A stretch of DNA of 29,324 nt, taken from a virus. Shown here piece after piece: positions 5,075 to 28,998 of this stretch; the first letter of the stretch is position 1, and each line of letters opens with the position of its first letter. A program made the translations under genes and the position numbers. The notes below the pieces were generated by a model. It saw nothing but the letters and a program-made list of their open reading frames with translations, searched no databases and had not been told where the DNA came from. The stretch is taken from the IMG/VR virus record IMGVR_UViG_3300025073_000139, positions 1 through 29,324 of that record, one strand, 5' to 3'.

Positions 5075-6346
5075 TTAGTTCTTCTCCATTTGATTTTTAA
5101 TAACATTCCGATCCATCAACCTAAAGATTGTTCTATCAAGATATGTTGGATCACGAATCTTTTGTTGCTTACGAATGGTGGTATACATGCAAGTTGTCGC
5201 AGAATTCTCGGCTTTGAGTATTCCAGATTGCTCAGCCATTTCAACATAGCCACGTAGCTGAGGTATGTTGTCTACATCTAGGTGGAAATTCCTAACCAGT
5301 TCTGTCCATTCAAAAGATTCATGACTATCAATAAATGAAAGTATCTTTGCATAGATGTTAGCCTGACTAGATAAGCCAAGTCCATAGAATGCGTTTGGCA
5401 TCTCAAGTTCTGTTGCTTGCATTATTGCCAAGGCTTGCTCGAAATGTTCAGCCGTGATTATCATGTCGTCAGATTCAGCGGCACATACAAGCATACAAAC
5501 CTTATTCAAATGAAGGGGCCTCCTATGATTATAACCTAAAAACCTCTCACTTGGTACTCCAGATTCGTCATAGTCTTGCTCATACCAACGCACATAAGTT
5601 TTGAGAAAATCCTTACTAAGGGTGAATTGTCCAGATAAGTTTGCAATTTCCTGCAAGTCGTTTTCTAACTTTTTTTGTGTATCTTCCTCCTCTTCAGTCA
5701 AAAACTGCAAGGCTCTTCTTTGCTTGGGACCCTGGCCAACTACGAAAATAATCCGAGAGATTAAGCCACCACCAACTGCGTCTTGACTCAGTTTAGATTG
5801 CAAAAGACTAGGAGTAATACATCCAAATAATGTTAGCCAACAATTGGATATGTCTTCAGTCTTTCTTGCTAAGGTTTTATACTTCCAAGTATCTGCACAA
5901 TCAAACAGATCGGTTAGGGATGCTAGAAGCATCTGATCTCTGTCGTTCAAGAAGACTTGAAATTCTTCTGACCAGATTGATACGCTCTTATGCTTACGAG
6001 TAAGTCCAGCATGATCAACATAAGTATCTTCGCTGTCCATGAGTTCTCTGTACAACGCCTGGGTGGATCCTAATGAATCTGCACCGATATTAACATCTAG
6101 TTTTTGTACAAAGCTCTTTGCAATTTTCATGGCTGTGCCTTTCCGTCCTCCAGGTGGACCGACAAGAGATACAAATAAGTTTGGATAAACATAACCACGA
6201 AGTGCTCCCCAGTTACAATAGCACTTTCTTCGTAATGCGGAAGCTATTGCAGTCAGTCCAGACCACAAATGGTATAGTTCTGGTGGCTCTGTTCGCTGTG
6301 TGTACTTCATATAATGAGCTAACCAATTATCTAATTGCCTCGACAT
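5075..6346 (-). CDS. DUF3987-like helicase/ATPase (phage replication protein)
   Basis: A P-loop ATPase of the type found beside phage primases and polymerases, probably the replicative helicase or helicase-primase component. The Walker A loop is GPPGGRKGT (residues 63-71), a DUF3987-style variant; SIWSEEF (123-129) fits Walker B, and SRIIFV further on fits a sensor/arginine region. The C-terminal 120 residues look like a winged-helix-type tail. No separate primase domain or zinc ribbon is present, and no other primase is seen in the window. AAGGAA precedes the start. It follows the polymerase and HNH genes in the same operon. Confidence 0.8.
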   Translation of the reverse strand: MSRQLDNWLAHYMKYTQRTEPPELYHLWSGLTAIASALRRKCYCNWGALRGYVYPNLFVSLVGPPGGRKGTAMKIAKSFVQKLDVNIGADSLGSTQALYRELMDSEDTYVDHAGLTRKHKSVSIWSEEFQVFLNDRDQMLLASLTDLFDCADTWKYKTLARKTEDISNCWLTLFGCITPSLLQSKLSQDAVGGGLISRIIFVVGQGPKQRRALQFLTEEEEDTQKKLENDLQEIANLSGQFTLSKDFLKTYVRWYEQDYDESGVPSERFLGYNHRRPLHLNKVCMLVCAAESDDMIITAEHFEQALAIMQATELEMPNAFYGLGLSSQANIYAKILSFIDSHESFEWTELVRNFHLDVDNIPQLRGYVEMAEQSGILKAENSATTCMYTTIRKQQKIRDPTYLDRTIFRLMDRNVIKNQMEKN

Positions 6347-6945: not shown

Positions 6946-9468
6946 TTAAAATCCTATTTTATTAATTGCTTTATCTATTGACTCTTGATTAAAATTAGAA
7001 ATTTCAGCAGTATTTCCGGCCCATTGAGTACCTACCTTGGCATCAAGTCCGATTGTGAAGCTCTTTCCTTTGTAAGTAAATGTGTGTGTCAGATGATCTT
7101 TAATGATAAGAAGAATCTGAGGCAAGTTTGGAATCTGGCTTTTGTGAAACCGAAATACAAATGAGTCATGAACAGTTGTCATACACCGAATGTCAAAACC
7201 ATCCTTGCCAAGCCTAGGATCATTCACTACTTTAATCATTCCACGATTGAGCAACTCTGCTACTGTTGATTGAGGTTTGTAGCTATAAGCATTTCTGAAT
7301 AGTGCTGCATTCATTTCACCTAAGAACCTGCGAGGCCGCCCAAACAAATTGTAGAGAACGCGATTCTTCTGAACCTCTTCTTCGATTGATCTATGCCATC
7401 GTTTTAGGCCAGGAAAGCGATCAGAATAATTATCAAGTAAACGCTTACAATCTGATTGAGATTTGAAAATTTCTTCTTTAGCAAGATTGTCAGAGAATGT
7501 TTGAGCCCCCATTGAATAATTGGATGCATGGACAACCTTTTTGCCCATATATCTCATGGTAGATTTTTGGTCTGCCTTTTTTGTCTTAGCCTCATGAATT
7601 ATTTCTTCGATTGGAACACCAAAAATCTTGCTTGCATTAAAGCTATGTACATCTATTCCTGATTCGAACGACTGAATCATGTTAGAATCTTGGGTAAGGT
7701 ATGCAACTACATGAGCTTCAGCCTTGGCAAGATCACACTCACACATAATCCAATCAGGATCGGCCAATAAGTAGTACTTAAAAATATATACCTGGTTCTG
7801 TAAGTTTGTGCCCGTTCCAAAGTATGTCTTTTCTGTAGCAATCCTGCCAGAGACTGTTCCAGAGATTTTATGGTTACAACGAAGCTTATTATCCTCATCT
7901 ACTGCAACATTAAAATAAGTTGAAATGAGTTTCTGTAACTCACGCATACGAATGATAACTCTAGCTTCTGCAGAACCTTTAATTCCTTTCTTAGCAATTC
8001 TGTGCATAGCTACAGCATCGCACGATACAGCTCCAGTTTTGCGATTCACATATGGTTTGATCATGCAAATGCCATAGAAATATGCGATCATTTGCTTTGA
8101 TGAAGACATATTTAATTCTTTTCCAGCCAACTCATTCAACTGTTTTTGCAGATCAATCAGTTCAAGCTCAAGTTCTTTCTTTTTATTTTCAATGCCTGCT
8201 GGATCAGTTAATATGCCGTTGAATTCCATTTCCATGAGTGGCTTATGAAGATTCATTGTATAATCCATGGCATCCATAGAATCAAATTCACCTAACTCTT
8301 CAAGGAGCTTCTCAGTGATAGGCAATAAGTATGCTGAGTCTTTGGCATTATAAGTCCAGTATTGTGGCCAGTTCTTAATAGCCTTAAGGTGAGATTGCTT
8401 TCCTTCGTCTTTGTAATAAGGATAGTATGTGTATGTAGAAGTTAGATAATCAAGTCCCTTTGGAAGTTCAGTATAACATATATGCTGTGCAAGCATGGTG
8501 TCAAAATAAAAGTTATCTGTTTTAATCATCATGGTACGGAAAGTAAACATGATGTCGAACATTCCATTTTGACAAATTTTACCTATGGCTTCATCATTAA
8601 GTATTTCTGCTAGGCCAGTCCAGATTTTTATCTCTTCTGCTGTTGCCCAATAGTTGCCCTGGTTGTTCATTAGAGGAACAGACATGGAGAGAATTTTATT
8701 ATCGTGGTAGACAGCCAATGAATAGCAGGTAATAAATTCTGGCGTAGCCTCAATGTCAAATGCTACATATTGCTTTGTCTTAATCAATGCATAGAATTGC
8801 ATAATTTCTTCAAAGCAAGGCTTGATTTTTATTTCTACATTGTCAACGAGCAATTCTGGATCTTCAATAATACGCAGAGCTTTCGTTAAGTCTGCAATCA
8901 TTGTATAGAAGTGGATAGGCTGTCCGTATGGGAGGGTGAAAGATGGATGGTAAGACAAACCTATTATTTTACCAGCCAGTTTATCTTTCAAATGTGGGAA
9001 GTCTTCAGCATGGTAGAAAGAACCACGATACTTTGTGATTGAATCAAACTTAGGCTCATCGAGCAATAGCCTCATCGGAGTAGCACCAAGCAACATTATG
9101 ACTTTGCCTGGAAATTGTGCAAGCTCATCAATTAGGGCTGCTTGCAACTTGGCCCAGTCTGGATGACGATAACCTTTATCAGTCCATAAGACAGCGGTAT
9201 TGTTTTTTGGGAACTTAGTTTTGCAGGCATTAGTTAGATAAATTTTGTATCGTGCGAGTCTGACTGCTGCACAGATGCGATTAAGCTGAGAGCCTGTCGG
9301 ACCAACGAATGGTTCGTTCTTCAGGACTTCTATTTCGCCTGGAGCTTCGCCAACCATAGCGATTTCAGCAGTAAGTATGTTGTCAGTTGGAGCGCACTCT
9401 ACAGCCAAGCAATTGAAAGAACCTTCTTTCTGCGGAGTTGCTGTAGTTGATATGCTAGGAATTATCAT
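6946..9468 (-). CDS. Uracil-DNA glycosylase-like / family A DNA polymerase fusion
   Basis: The replicative polymerase. Residues about 36-200 resemble family 4/5 uracil-DNA glycosylases: GEAPGEIE (40-47), PFVGPTG (53-59), a TNACKTKFP segment and HPS (174-176). The 3'-5' exonuclease follows, with D238/E240 (FDIEA), CQNGMFD (D305) and YNAKD (D377). The polymerase part has GTVSGRIATE (537-546), motif A CDLAKAEA (Asp579), the O-helix R639-K643-H647-Y651 and motif C VHDS (Asp768). The position equal to E. coli Pol I Phe762 is His647. At 840 aa it is complete. Its last ~18 codons are unusually AT-rich and seem to have been replaced by the adjacent HNH element. The start is poorly marked by a ribosome site (AAGGAACC). 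Confidence 0.93.
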   Translation of the reverse strand: MIIPSISTTATPQKEGSFNCLAVECAPTDNILTAEIAMVGEAPGEIEVLKNEPFVGPTGSQLNRICAAVRLARYKIYLTNACKTKFPKNNTAVLWTDKGYRHPDWAKLQAALIDELAQFPGKVIMLLGATPMRLLLDEPKFDSITKYRGSFYHAEDFPHLKDKLAGKIIGLSYHPSFTLPYGQPIHFYTMIADLTKALRIIEDPELLVDNVEIKIKPCFEEIMQFYALIKTKQYVAFDIEATPEFITCYSLAVYHDNKILSMSVPLMNNQGNYWATAEEIKIWTGLAEILNDEAIGKICQNGMFDIMFTFRTMMIKTDNFYFDTMLAQHICYTELPKGLDYLTSTYTYYPYYKDEGKQSHLKAIKNWPQYWTYNAKDSAYLLPITEKLLEELGEFDSMDAMDYTMNLHKPLMEMEFNGILTDPAGIENKKKELELELIDLQKQLNELAGKELNMSSSKQMIAYFYGICMIKPYVNRKTGAVSCDAVAMHRIAKKGIKGSAEARVIIRMRELQKLISTYFNVAVDEDNKLRCNHKISGTVSGRIATEKTYFGTGTNLQNQVYIFKYYLLADPDWIMCECDLAKAEAHVVAYLTQDSNMIQSFESGIDVHSFNASKIFGVPIEEIIHEAKTKKADQKSTMRYMGKKVVHASNYSMGAQTFSDNLAKEEIFKSQSDCKRLLDNYSDRFPGLKRWHRSIEEEVQKNRVLYNLFGRPRRFLGEMNAALFRNAYSYKPQSTVAELLNRGMIKVVNDPRLGKDGFDIRCMTTVHDSFVFRFHKSQIPNLPQILLIIKDHLTHTFTYKGKSFTIGLDAKVGTQWAGNTAEISNFNQESIDKAINKIGF

Positions 9469-10344: not shown

Positions 10345-11775
10345 TTATAATCCCTCCACTTCAGCAGTTATTCCCAAATAATTTTCAAGTCTTTGATAAA
10401 ATTCTGGAATATATTTCTGGCTCTTATCACATCCAACTGGTATCATTTTTTCTTTAGCTGCACTAATCAAGCAGTTTCCAGAACCAGCAAAGAGACTCAT
10501 AAATAATGTACCAGGTTTACCTAAAGCTTTTAAGAAATGATCATAAAGTTCAATCGGTTTTTCCCACTGATGGATTCGTTGACTAGAACTGACTGTGCTT
10601 ATGTTAATTGAAGACGACAAGCTAGGAGTATTGAACTGTGCATTTCCCTTACGGAGCAAGAGAAACATTTCCCAGTTGCTCACCATGTTTGTTTTAGGCT
10701 TATTGGTGCTGCCACCAACTTTGTTCCATGAACCAGGAGACTGAACTCCAAATCCTATGTCTCTAGCAATGTTGTTGATCTGAATGAAATGTTCCTTACC
10801 TGTCCAGACTAAAACCCAACTACAGTCAAGCATCTTCTCATATACTAACGGAAGATAATTGAAGTAGAAGTCATAAAGTTCTTTTTCATCCCAGTCTTGA
10901 GCTTTACATTCGATCTTGTTTGTTTTACCATAATTATCGTTGAAATCAATTGCATATGGTGGATCAAGTTCTACCATACCCACAGAATTGCTTGGAATCT
11001 TATCGAGGAATGTCTTGTAGTTTTCGGCCACATAAATTACTTGAATGTTAGATCTGATTGGTTCTTGTTCGTCTTCGAGTTCTTGTTCATCTTCGTCAAA
11101 CTCGGTAAGTCTTTCTTTGGCTTGCTTGGTTTTCTCAAATACAGTTTGGTTTACCGTATTTTTTATAGGTGCAGTCATGGTTCCGTTTTGTAGAGCAACT
11201 AAACGCCCTTTTTCAGCATCGGTGAAACTTCCCATTCGCTGAAGTGCCTTAGCTTGTTCACCAAGAGCTTTGTATGCTTCTTTAGCTCGACTCTTAGTAG
11301 ACTGTTCTTTAAGGATCGGAAAGACTTTGAGAGCTTCTGCGAAAGCAAGATCAGTAGATAAGCCTCCTAGACTGCACTTGAGCCTCTTGGCTGTTTCTCT
11401 GTAGCCCCAAGATTTGCCTTCCTTGCTTGCTGCTTCTACCCAATAGTTGTGCAGCTTATACTTGAGGTCAATTTCCTCGTGCCACAGAAATTCCTTGCGG
11501 TCCATGTTACTAAGAAGCTCGATCAAGAAATGATCATCTTCAGTAATGCCGTCAAAGACTCGGACTTCGATTGTTTCTTTACCAAGTTTTTTAAATGCTT
11601 CGATGCGATGAAGGCCATCGATTAAGACGTTATTTGAATCTATAAGAATTGCATGAAGTTGGCCAACCATCGAGATTGAATCAGCCAAGCTGGAGATGTC
11701 GCCAACTGCTGAACGTGCGCGATTTTTGATGATAATGTCTGATATGTTACGTTCTTCTATTTGAAAGAGTTGCAT
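10345..11775 (-). CDS. ParB-like domain fused to a DNA methyltransferase
   Basis: Predicted AdoMet-dependent N4-cytosine or N6-adenine methyltransferase. Residues 1-110 are ParB/sulfiredoxin-like, with DGLHRIEA (53-60); a helical part with a possible helix-turn-helix (GYRETAKRLKCSLGGLS, 124-140) follows, then an acidic linker (225-240). The methyltransferase part has DPPY (271-274) before FAGSGN (429-434), the beta-class order. Such ParB-methylase proteins are common in phages and plasmids; methylation may hide phage DNA from host restriction. No restriction partner gene is visible nearby, so an orphan methylase is most likely. Confidence 0.88.
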   Translation of the reverse strand: MQLFQIEERNISDIIIKNRARSAVGDISSLADSISMVGQLHAILIDSNNVLIDGLHRIEAFKKLGKETIEVRVFDGITEDDHFLIELLSNMDRKEFLWHEEIDLKYKLHNYWVEAASKEGKSWGYRETAKRLKCSLGGLSTDLAFAEALKVFPILKEQSTKSRAKEAYKALGEQAKALQRMGSFTDAEKGRLVALQNGTMTAPIKNTVNQTVFEKTKQAKERLTEFDEDEQELEDEQEPIRSNIQVIYVAENYKTFLDKIPSNSVGMVELDPPYAIDFNDNYGKTNKIECKAQDWDEKELYDFYFNYLPLVYEKMLDCSWVLVWTGKEHFIQINNIARDIGFGVQSPGSWNKVGGSTNKPKTNMVSNWEMFLLLRKGNAQFNTPSLSSSINISTVSSSQRIHQWEKPIELYDHFLKALGKPGTLFMSLFAGSGNCLISAAKEKMIPVGCDKSQKYIPEFYQRLENYLGITAEVEGL

Positions 11776-27586: not shown

Positions 27587-27885
27587 TTAATAATCTTCTC
27601 TGGCTATTACCCAGACGTTATGATTAGGCAGTCGCTTTAGATAGTCAATTTTGTCCTGAGGTTTTCCTTGTATTGAGTTATAAGTTTGATTGGTTAGACT
27701 AAAAAAATAGATTTTCGTTTGCTTTGAATATTTTTTGCTTTGATTTTAATCTGATAAATAAGATATAATTTATCTGATGCACATGGCTTGCAACAGCTTA
27801 TAAGTGATTTATTATCATTAATTGGTCTGCGAGTATCGCGATAGATATAATTAGTTTGTTGTTGGCAAAAAGTGCAGAGTGTCAT
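27587..27885 (-). CDS. Zinc-knuckle protein with a -1 frame continuation at U UUU UUA
   Basis: Frame 0 runs from the ATG at 27885 (MTLCTFCQQ) to TAA at 27694, 63 aa with CTFC and CCKPC for one zinc site. Just before that stop is T TTT TTA (27706-27700) in the right phase for a -1 shift. The -1 frame is open to TAA at 27587 and encodes SLTNQTYNSIQGKPQDKIDY and LKRLPNHNVWVIAREDY, which looks coding but has no start codon of its own. A fused product would be about 100 aa. Alternatives are a single-base deletion in the run of seven T, real or a sequencing artefact. GGAG is 11 bases before the ATG. Confidence 0.5.
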
Positions 27886-27903: not shown

Positions 27904-28103
27904 TTAATTTGTAAAGATATTTTTCAAAACTGTATCGTTGTTGATAATCTGCTGAGCTTGTTCTGCTGTGAAGCCTATCGAAAATAAAAATAACACTACT
28001 GTTTCGCGTGCTTGGTCTGTTGGAAGAGTGCTTGCAATTGCTTTGATTTCCTCTATGGCTTTTTTAACACTGTTAAAATTTCATTCTCGGTTAGTTGGTT
28101 CAT
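27904..28103 (-). CDS. Small protein requiring a -1 shift at A AAA AAG, 66 aa
   Basis: The ATG at 28103 has a good AGGAG and opens MNQLTENEILTVLKK, then stops at TAG two codons later. A AAA AAG (28065-28059), the classic bacterial -1 slippery heptamer, lies in phase at LKK; the -1 frame then gives AIEEIKAIASTLPTDQARET, VVLFLFSIGFTAEQAQQIIN and NDTVLKNIFTN to TAA at 27904. The combined protein is helical and continuous in character. No start codon exists for the second part. Programmed frameshifting, a mutation in the run of six A, or an assembly error are possible. It is the first gene behind the promoter at 28169-28197. Confidence 0.6.
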
Positions 28104-28168
28104 TTTGTTTAACTCCTATAAAGTTAAATTTAACTGCATGGTGAAAAGGTATAGGTATATCTTGTGTT

Positions 28169-28197
28169 ATTGTACCGTATACAAGTGGGTTTGTCAA
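28169..28197 (-). promoter_or_regulatory. Strong sigma70-type promoter, leftward
   Basis: On the - strand TTGACA (28197-28192), a 17-base spacer and TACAAT (28174-28169): one mismatch in total. Transcription should begin near 28162, about 60 bases before the ATG at 28103. It would drive the accessory genes to its left. Confidence 0.85.
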
Positions 28198-28199
28198 CG

Positions 28200-28441
28200 G
28201 AAAAACACGTAGGCGGTTTACGGTGTTGGTGTGTGCTACGTTGTGGTAGTTAGTCGGTGGTGTGTATATAGTATGGTGGACGGCCGGAATAGGCGCTAGA
28301 AGGGCGTAGGATGGCCGTGACAGGCCGTAGCGTCCGGGTTGGTACGGTTGCATGGTCGGCGGGAAACGTAGCGTGGTGGCCGTTGTGGTGGCTAAGCGGG
28401 CATAACGGAAAAAACCGTGTAATTCCACCACGTTATGCCCG
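28200..28441. other. G-rich non-coding segment with a perfect inverted repeat
   Basis: GC-rich compared with the rest of the window and strongly G over C on the + strand, with several GGCCG and GTAGCGT repeats. An 11-bp perfect inverted repeat CGGGCATAACG (28397-28407) / CGTTATGCCCG (28431-28441) encloses a smaller ACGG/CCGT hairpin. It lies 15 bases after the stop of the 180-aa gene, so it could end that transcript, though no T run follows it leftward. No coding frame is convincing. Confidence 0.55.
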
Positions 28442-28455
28442 TTCATTAGATGTGT

Positions 28456-28998
28456 TTATTCCTCGCTATCTATCCAATCTTTCGGCGGGCTGAAATCAGT
28501 TAATGTTGATATTTCTGATTCAGTGATGTTTGGATCATGAAATTCTGACGGTTTGGGGAGTGGTTTAGATGTTTGGAAGGCTAAACTAATTTGATCCTCT
28601 AGTTCTTTATTTGATATCTCTCTATGTTGTGCTGTTTGTCTTGATTGAGATTCTTGCTTTAGAATGTTGAATAGCTTTTCATCTTCAAGTTCTCTTTGAA
28701 TTTGCCAGGCTGGTTTGTTGGCTTGTCCAAGTTGAGGTAGTGGAGCAAGGTTTTTATTTTGCGCTGGTTGTTTGATCATTCCCATTCTTGCCATGGCAAT
28801 CTCTTGGAGTAGCTCAGGAGTGACGCTATGTGGATTATTGTTGCTGAATTCTGATTTTGCGATAAACTCATAAAAGATTGTTCTTATAAGTTCGGCTGGA
28901 GTGGTAAGTTTCCAATCAGGCTCAAGATGACGAACGGCTCTTAGTCCTCTGGCAAGATGATAATCGGAGATGCGAAAACTTACGGTAGGGTTTGACAT
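28456..28998 (-). CDS. Strand-helix-helix protein with a long disordered tail, 180 aa
   Basis: Residues 1-50 (VSFRISDYHLARGLRAVRH, then LTTPAELIRTIFYEFIAK) are paralogous to the 96-aa gene at 24039-24329 and fit a ribbon-helix-helix-type DNA-binding domain. The remaining 130 residues are polar, rich in Gln, Pro and acidic residues, and probably flexible. AAGGAG precedes the ATG. It is the first gene to the left of the right-end repeat array and is likely its regulator or a replication factor binding it; that is inference. Confidence 0.7.
   Translation of the reverse strand: MSNPTVSFRISDYHLARGLRAVRHLEPDWKLTTPAELIRTIFYEFIAKSEFSNNNPHSVTPELLQEIAMARMGMIKQPAQNKNLAPLPQLGQANKPAWQIQRELEDEKLFNILKQESQSRQTAQHREISNKELEDQISLAFQTSKPLPKPSEFHDPNITESEISTLTDFSPPKDWIDSEE

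Follow-up and report, generated by a model that had tools for sequence, protein, structure and literature searches.

A small early phage gene split at an A AAA AAG heptamer, probably through loss of one A in a high-turnover first-gene slot

The split gene and its genomic setting

A small early gene of an uncultured phage lies broken across two reading frames at an A AAA AAG heptamer, and the break is probably a product of decay, rather than programmed slippage, in which an A-run became one A shorter and an ordinary non-essential gene was disrupted. That one gene is split over the two frames is strongly supported. The DNA is IMG/VR virus record IMGVR_UViG_3300025073_000139, positions 1 to 29,324, and this whole stretch of 29,324 bases is referred to here as the window. 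The features of the split gene and its surroundings are as follows.

28197-28192 and 28174-28169 (28169..28197), minus strand: sigma-70-like promoter TTGACA-17-TACAAT, conserved in related phages
28117-28113, minus strand: Shine-Dalgarno AGGAG, read directly
28103-28101, minus strand: ATG start
28053..28103, minus strand: zero frame, 16 codons MNQLTENEILTVLKKP, then TAG at 28055-28053
28065-28059, minus strand: A AAA AAG, a heptamer with six A's and X XXY YYZ phase; the frame breaks here
27904..28059, minus strand: -1 frame body AIEEIKAIASTLPTDQARETVVLFLFSIGFTAEQAQQIINNDTVLKNIFTN, coding, without a usual start codon, stop TAA at 27906-27904
27587..27745, minus strand: start-less remnant of a DKIDYLKRL small gene, matching part DKIDYLKRLPNHNVWVIAREDY within 27682-27590
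28456-28998: 180-aa gene
6946-9468, minus strand: family A DNA polymerase, 840 aa, with an N-terminal uracil-DNA-glycosylase-superfamily domain and an exonuclease domain
10345-11775, minus strand: DNA methyltransferase with a ParB-like domain fused at its N-terminus

Most genes of the window are carried on the minus strand. Annotation, including Pfam and PHROGs, also recognized ThyX, a NAD-dependent ligase, a Sak4-like ATPase, a UvrD-like helicase and a DUF3987/primase-like protein. The genome is tailed-phage-like, and its named relatives are only distant; the polymerase, for example, is ~31% identical to the best-ranked named record. Directly downstream of the 180-aa gene lies a terminator-like inverted repeat, GGGCATAACG...CGTTATGCCC (~28396-28440, minus strand), that is conserved in all related loci L008-L029, and 3' of it ~200 nt of partly conserved non-coding DNA reaches the promoter. 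The leader and N-terminal part of the split gene contain two perfect palindromes, TTTTAACAGTGTTAAAA and AGTTAAATTTAACT, at window positions 28062-28078 and 28122-28135 (minus strand), which are possible operator sites or AT-rich chance.

The Shine-Dalgarno and start pair is the first one after the promoter match, 63 nt downstream, and the first gene of related phages starts 53-88 nt after the promoter in intact cases. Joined across the break, the product would be MNQLTENEILTVLKK followed by AIEEIKAIASTLPTDQARETVVLFLFSIGFTAEQAQQIINNDTVLKNIFTN, 66 aa in all. The initial annotation had described a start and ribosome site leading into a 16-codon frame, a stop just after the heptamer in correct phase, and a start-less -1 frame continuing to 27904 as a plausible helical protein, and each of these observations was borne out, the last by the four helices of an AlphaFold model.

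Coding character of the -1 frame body

The body of the -1 frame, which includes the peptides AIEEIK and ETVVLFLFSIGFTAEQAQQIINNDTVLK, was compared with its 89% identical counterpart in contig L004. Over these 156 nt, 12 substitutions set L004-L007 apart from the window. Read in the -1 frame, 11 of them are synonymous and one is nonsynonymous; in the other two frames the same 12 differences give two and zero synonymous changes, with 9 and 11 nonsynonymous codons. None of 20,000 simulated random placements was as conservative as that observed. Judging from this substitution pattern, the -1 frame is a genuine coding sequence that has been under purifying selection in the past, at least until recently. 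Coding selection is thus seen for the -1 frame, and the zero-frame part is without a divergent homologue.

An AlphaFold single-sequence model of the -1 frame gave a mean pLDDT of 91.8, and its predicted first helix (residues 3-16) crosses the junction between the zero frame and the -1 frame. Such a confident predicted fold, with its first helix running across the junction, supports the view that the two frames would once have formed one protein. The body is without an internal stop or further damage, so either the break is recent or the product is still useful. No ATG, GTG or TTG precedes the conserved part of the -1 frame, and a GTG inside the body was ruled out as a start since this codon is GTA in L004.

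Database comparisons gave a DUF5347 match in Pfam that was sub-threshold (19.8 bits, cut-off 25), no match in PHROGs and nothing significant in Foldseek. The best viral Foldseek match, A0A6J7X281 (E 0.16, TM 0.61), is a 67-aa uncharacterised phage protein of similar length, which is not evidence of kinship.

Relatives of the split gene

The body is encoded by six IMG/VR contigs (L002-L007). Protein and alignment searches of viral contigs, GTDB contigs, and phage and plasmid records returned just these six, a degenerate DNA pattern search added none, and an HMM applied to the ORFs of the fetched loci, in all six frames, recovered no distant homologue among the other first genes. A search of 16 other related contigs, fragments among them, did not find the gene. 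Two contigs, L002 and L003, are 100% identical to the window over 10.9 and 4.6 kb, respectively, and represent the same strain. Six A's stand in both, as in the window, and this speaks against an accident of assembly; as the three contigs are identical, they amount to one datum.

The only divergent relatives are L004-L007, four contigs of two strains that are ~96-97% identical over the fetched regions. Both strains have a deletion that begins shortly behind the promoter and takes out the ribosome-binding site, the ATG and the heptamer itself. The deletion junction is AGCCATA, a 7-mer found at the start of the body and in the leaders of other relatives (for example, within the leader GATACAGCCATACC of L012, L019, L023 and L024), so a deletion mediated by this short repeat would be a simple explanation. 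Because these copies lack the usual start codon and ribosome site, the gene is probably silent in L004-L007, where it is apparently dispensable.

In the comparison of homologues proposed in the initial annotation, the heptamer is kept just in the identical L002 and L003, and it cannot be called conserved since the sole divergent relatives have lost the whole stretch. At the same time, no intact single-frame relative with seven A's, the finding that had been named as refuting a programmed shift, was found in IMG/VR, GTDB genome contigs, or phage or plasmid records, where the divergent homologues lack the 5' part. As no such relative was found, we infer the ancestral intact frame with one more A. 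We also infer that the protein is no longer produced to any useful effect.

The high-turnover first-gene slot

Besides the window, each of the 23 related loci examined has the promoter, in some cases slightly altered, and in most groups the gene behind it differs from that of other groups. Across the window and loci L008-L029 and L044, most of the related phages have a small orphan gene of their own behind the conserved promoter. This exchangeable first-gene slot may hold anti-host or anti-defence genes.

Debris is found in the slot across several contigs. In L044, the promoter leader is joined to the end of a different gene (final codons IAREDY), in L026-L029 it is joined to a fragment, PEPHKWYGQG, and in L012 the slot holds the start-less DKLDYLKRLPNHNVWVIAKEDY. 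In the same slot, g27013 is fused or truncated in L011, with its N-terminal part replaced, and in L013 and L014 its homologue (from 5777 and 6344), otherwise ~86% identical to the window copy, carries an in-frame TGA where relatives have TGC. In the window itself, the DKIDYLKRL remnant lies ~160 nt from the split gene and was matched by tblastn to intact 58-aa homologues in L017, L020, L023 and L024. Together with the 5' deletion in L004-L007 and the failure to find the gene in the other contigs, these decayed neighbours document dispensability or decay among the relatives, and the loss of one base in a first-gene A-run is therefore to be expected for the region.

A gene of ~66 codons in the early region probably lost one A from the A-run at codons 13-15, so that the ribosome now stops after 16 residues. 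Some full-length protein probably still arises when ribosomes slip spontaneously into the -1 frame at A AAA AAG, but in a small rather than a programmed amount (far less than 1%, should the E. coli values hold). The gene comes first after a strong, conserved promoter, in a place where small non-essential genes are gained, truncated and lost. More generally, a survey of conserved frame transitions across 1106 prokaryotic genomes counted 4010 clusters of pseudogenes and 146 of recoding (PMC3711429).

Programmed frameshifting and other explanations

Programmed -1 frameshifting at A AAA AAG would make the 66-aa protein and might in this way hold back the translation of an early protein; it is considered unlikely here in spite of several points that speak for it. 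The motif is a strong one and stands in the zero-frame X XXY YYZ phase, the Shine-Dalgarno and ATG are well placed, the body shows purifying selection, a predicted first helix across the junction would make a fused protein sensible, and all three contigs of the window strain have the heptamer. Against it, these contigs are the single datum described above, and the divergent relatives are without the site. Pseudoknot-free folding of the RNA 3' of the heptamer was no better than that of shuffles (z +0.82, +1.03, +0.50 and +0.14), leaving no stimulatory hairpin above that background, and an internal Shine-Dalgarno is absent 6-17 nt upstream of the heptamer, where the sequence is GAAATTTTAACA. AAAAAAG occurs 11 times in the window (18.6 expected), and two other A AAA AAG copies have the slippery phase within genes that are not broken (primase-like and DNA polymerase), so the motif alone is uninformative. 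Nor is the slippery phase independent evidence, since the loss of any A from TTA AAA AAA GCC yields the same phase automatically. At window positions 5669-5676 (minus strand), within the unbroken primase-like gene, seven A's are followed by G, with the heptamer in slippery phase.

The heptamer had been described as the strongest known bacterial slippery sequence, a superlative that slightly overstates what is certainly a strong motif: it is among the three most efficient slippery heptamers in E. coli, given a stimulator (PMC4066793). In E. coli, shifty heptamers that lack stimulators exceed a background of 0.055% by factors of just 2.1-10 (PMC4066793), and if these bare-heptamer values also hold for the phage host, slippage alone would be expected to give just trace amounts of full-length protein. 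At least one proven case, cluster A_AAA_AAC_1, has no established stimulator (PMC4066793), and a minimal programmed -1 frameshift is conceivable, in which a bare heptamer directly after a 15-codon leader, with no stimulator, would keep the output of a small, helical early protein low and constant; we regard this as quite improbable. The undamaged body and the failure to find an intact homologue keep programmed frameshifting alive. The initial annotation had judged a programmed shift and a lost A equally possible, and the equality did not hold: with no stimulator, internal Shine-Dalgarno or conservation of the site detected, and with a slot of recurrent decay, the indel is clearly favoured.

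It is very doubtful that the body is translated independently, either from ATT at 28038-28036 behind GAGG at 28053-28050 or by reinitiation at an ATA overlapping the TAG. Such a start would also let the start-less copies of L004-L007 be expressed, the GAGG and ATT are kept in both lineages, and the body is open in both and free of substitutions over its first 30 nt. That stretch, with ~2.3 changes expected, is not significantly conserved, however, the 11-nt spacing is long, and ATT would cut the first predicted helix. Starts at ATT and ATA are also very rare. A phase-variable switch, off with six A's and on with seven, would suit an accessory gene that has a homopolymer close to its start, but six to seven A's are short for a hypermutable tract, the same strand of the window has 27 runs of at least six A's, and every contig has six, making a switch highly improbable. 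Transcriptional slippage was set aside, as six A's are few for slippage by RNA polymerase. A sequencing or assembly error hiding a true run of seven is scarcely credible: homopolymers are error-prone, but six A's also occur in two contigs of IMG records 3300025009 and 3300025154, whose samples may be related.

Significance and comparison with known systems

As an instance of gene decay, the split gene matters little. It does illustrate that finding a slippery heptamer where a frame breaks counts only weakly for recoding when the homopolymer is of a common kind and the gene slot has a high turnover. A better lead is the promoter, which is conserved while the first gene behind it varies: it marks the place of this phage group's exchangeable early genes.

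Among known systems, the pseudogene clusters of GeneTack (PMC3711429) are alike in having a one-base transition at a homopolymer, truncation of most of the product, a narrow lineage and no conserved stimulators; the present case differs in that the gene is a phage gene of very small size, that its break lies at a slippery heptamer and that no intact homologue was found. The -1 programmed frameshifting of IS3-family transposons and dnaX uses the same A AAA AAG in the same phase, whereas here the zero frame has 16 codons and no downstream hairpin, internal Shine-Dalgarno or site conservation was detected. Finally, the early-promoter slots of viruses, for example those reported from a regulatory-sequence-guided search in archaeal viruses (PMC11065993), similarly place variable small orphan genes behind a conserved promoter, with the difference that the slot genes of the present phages are known from sequence alone.
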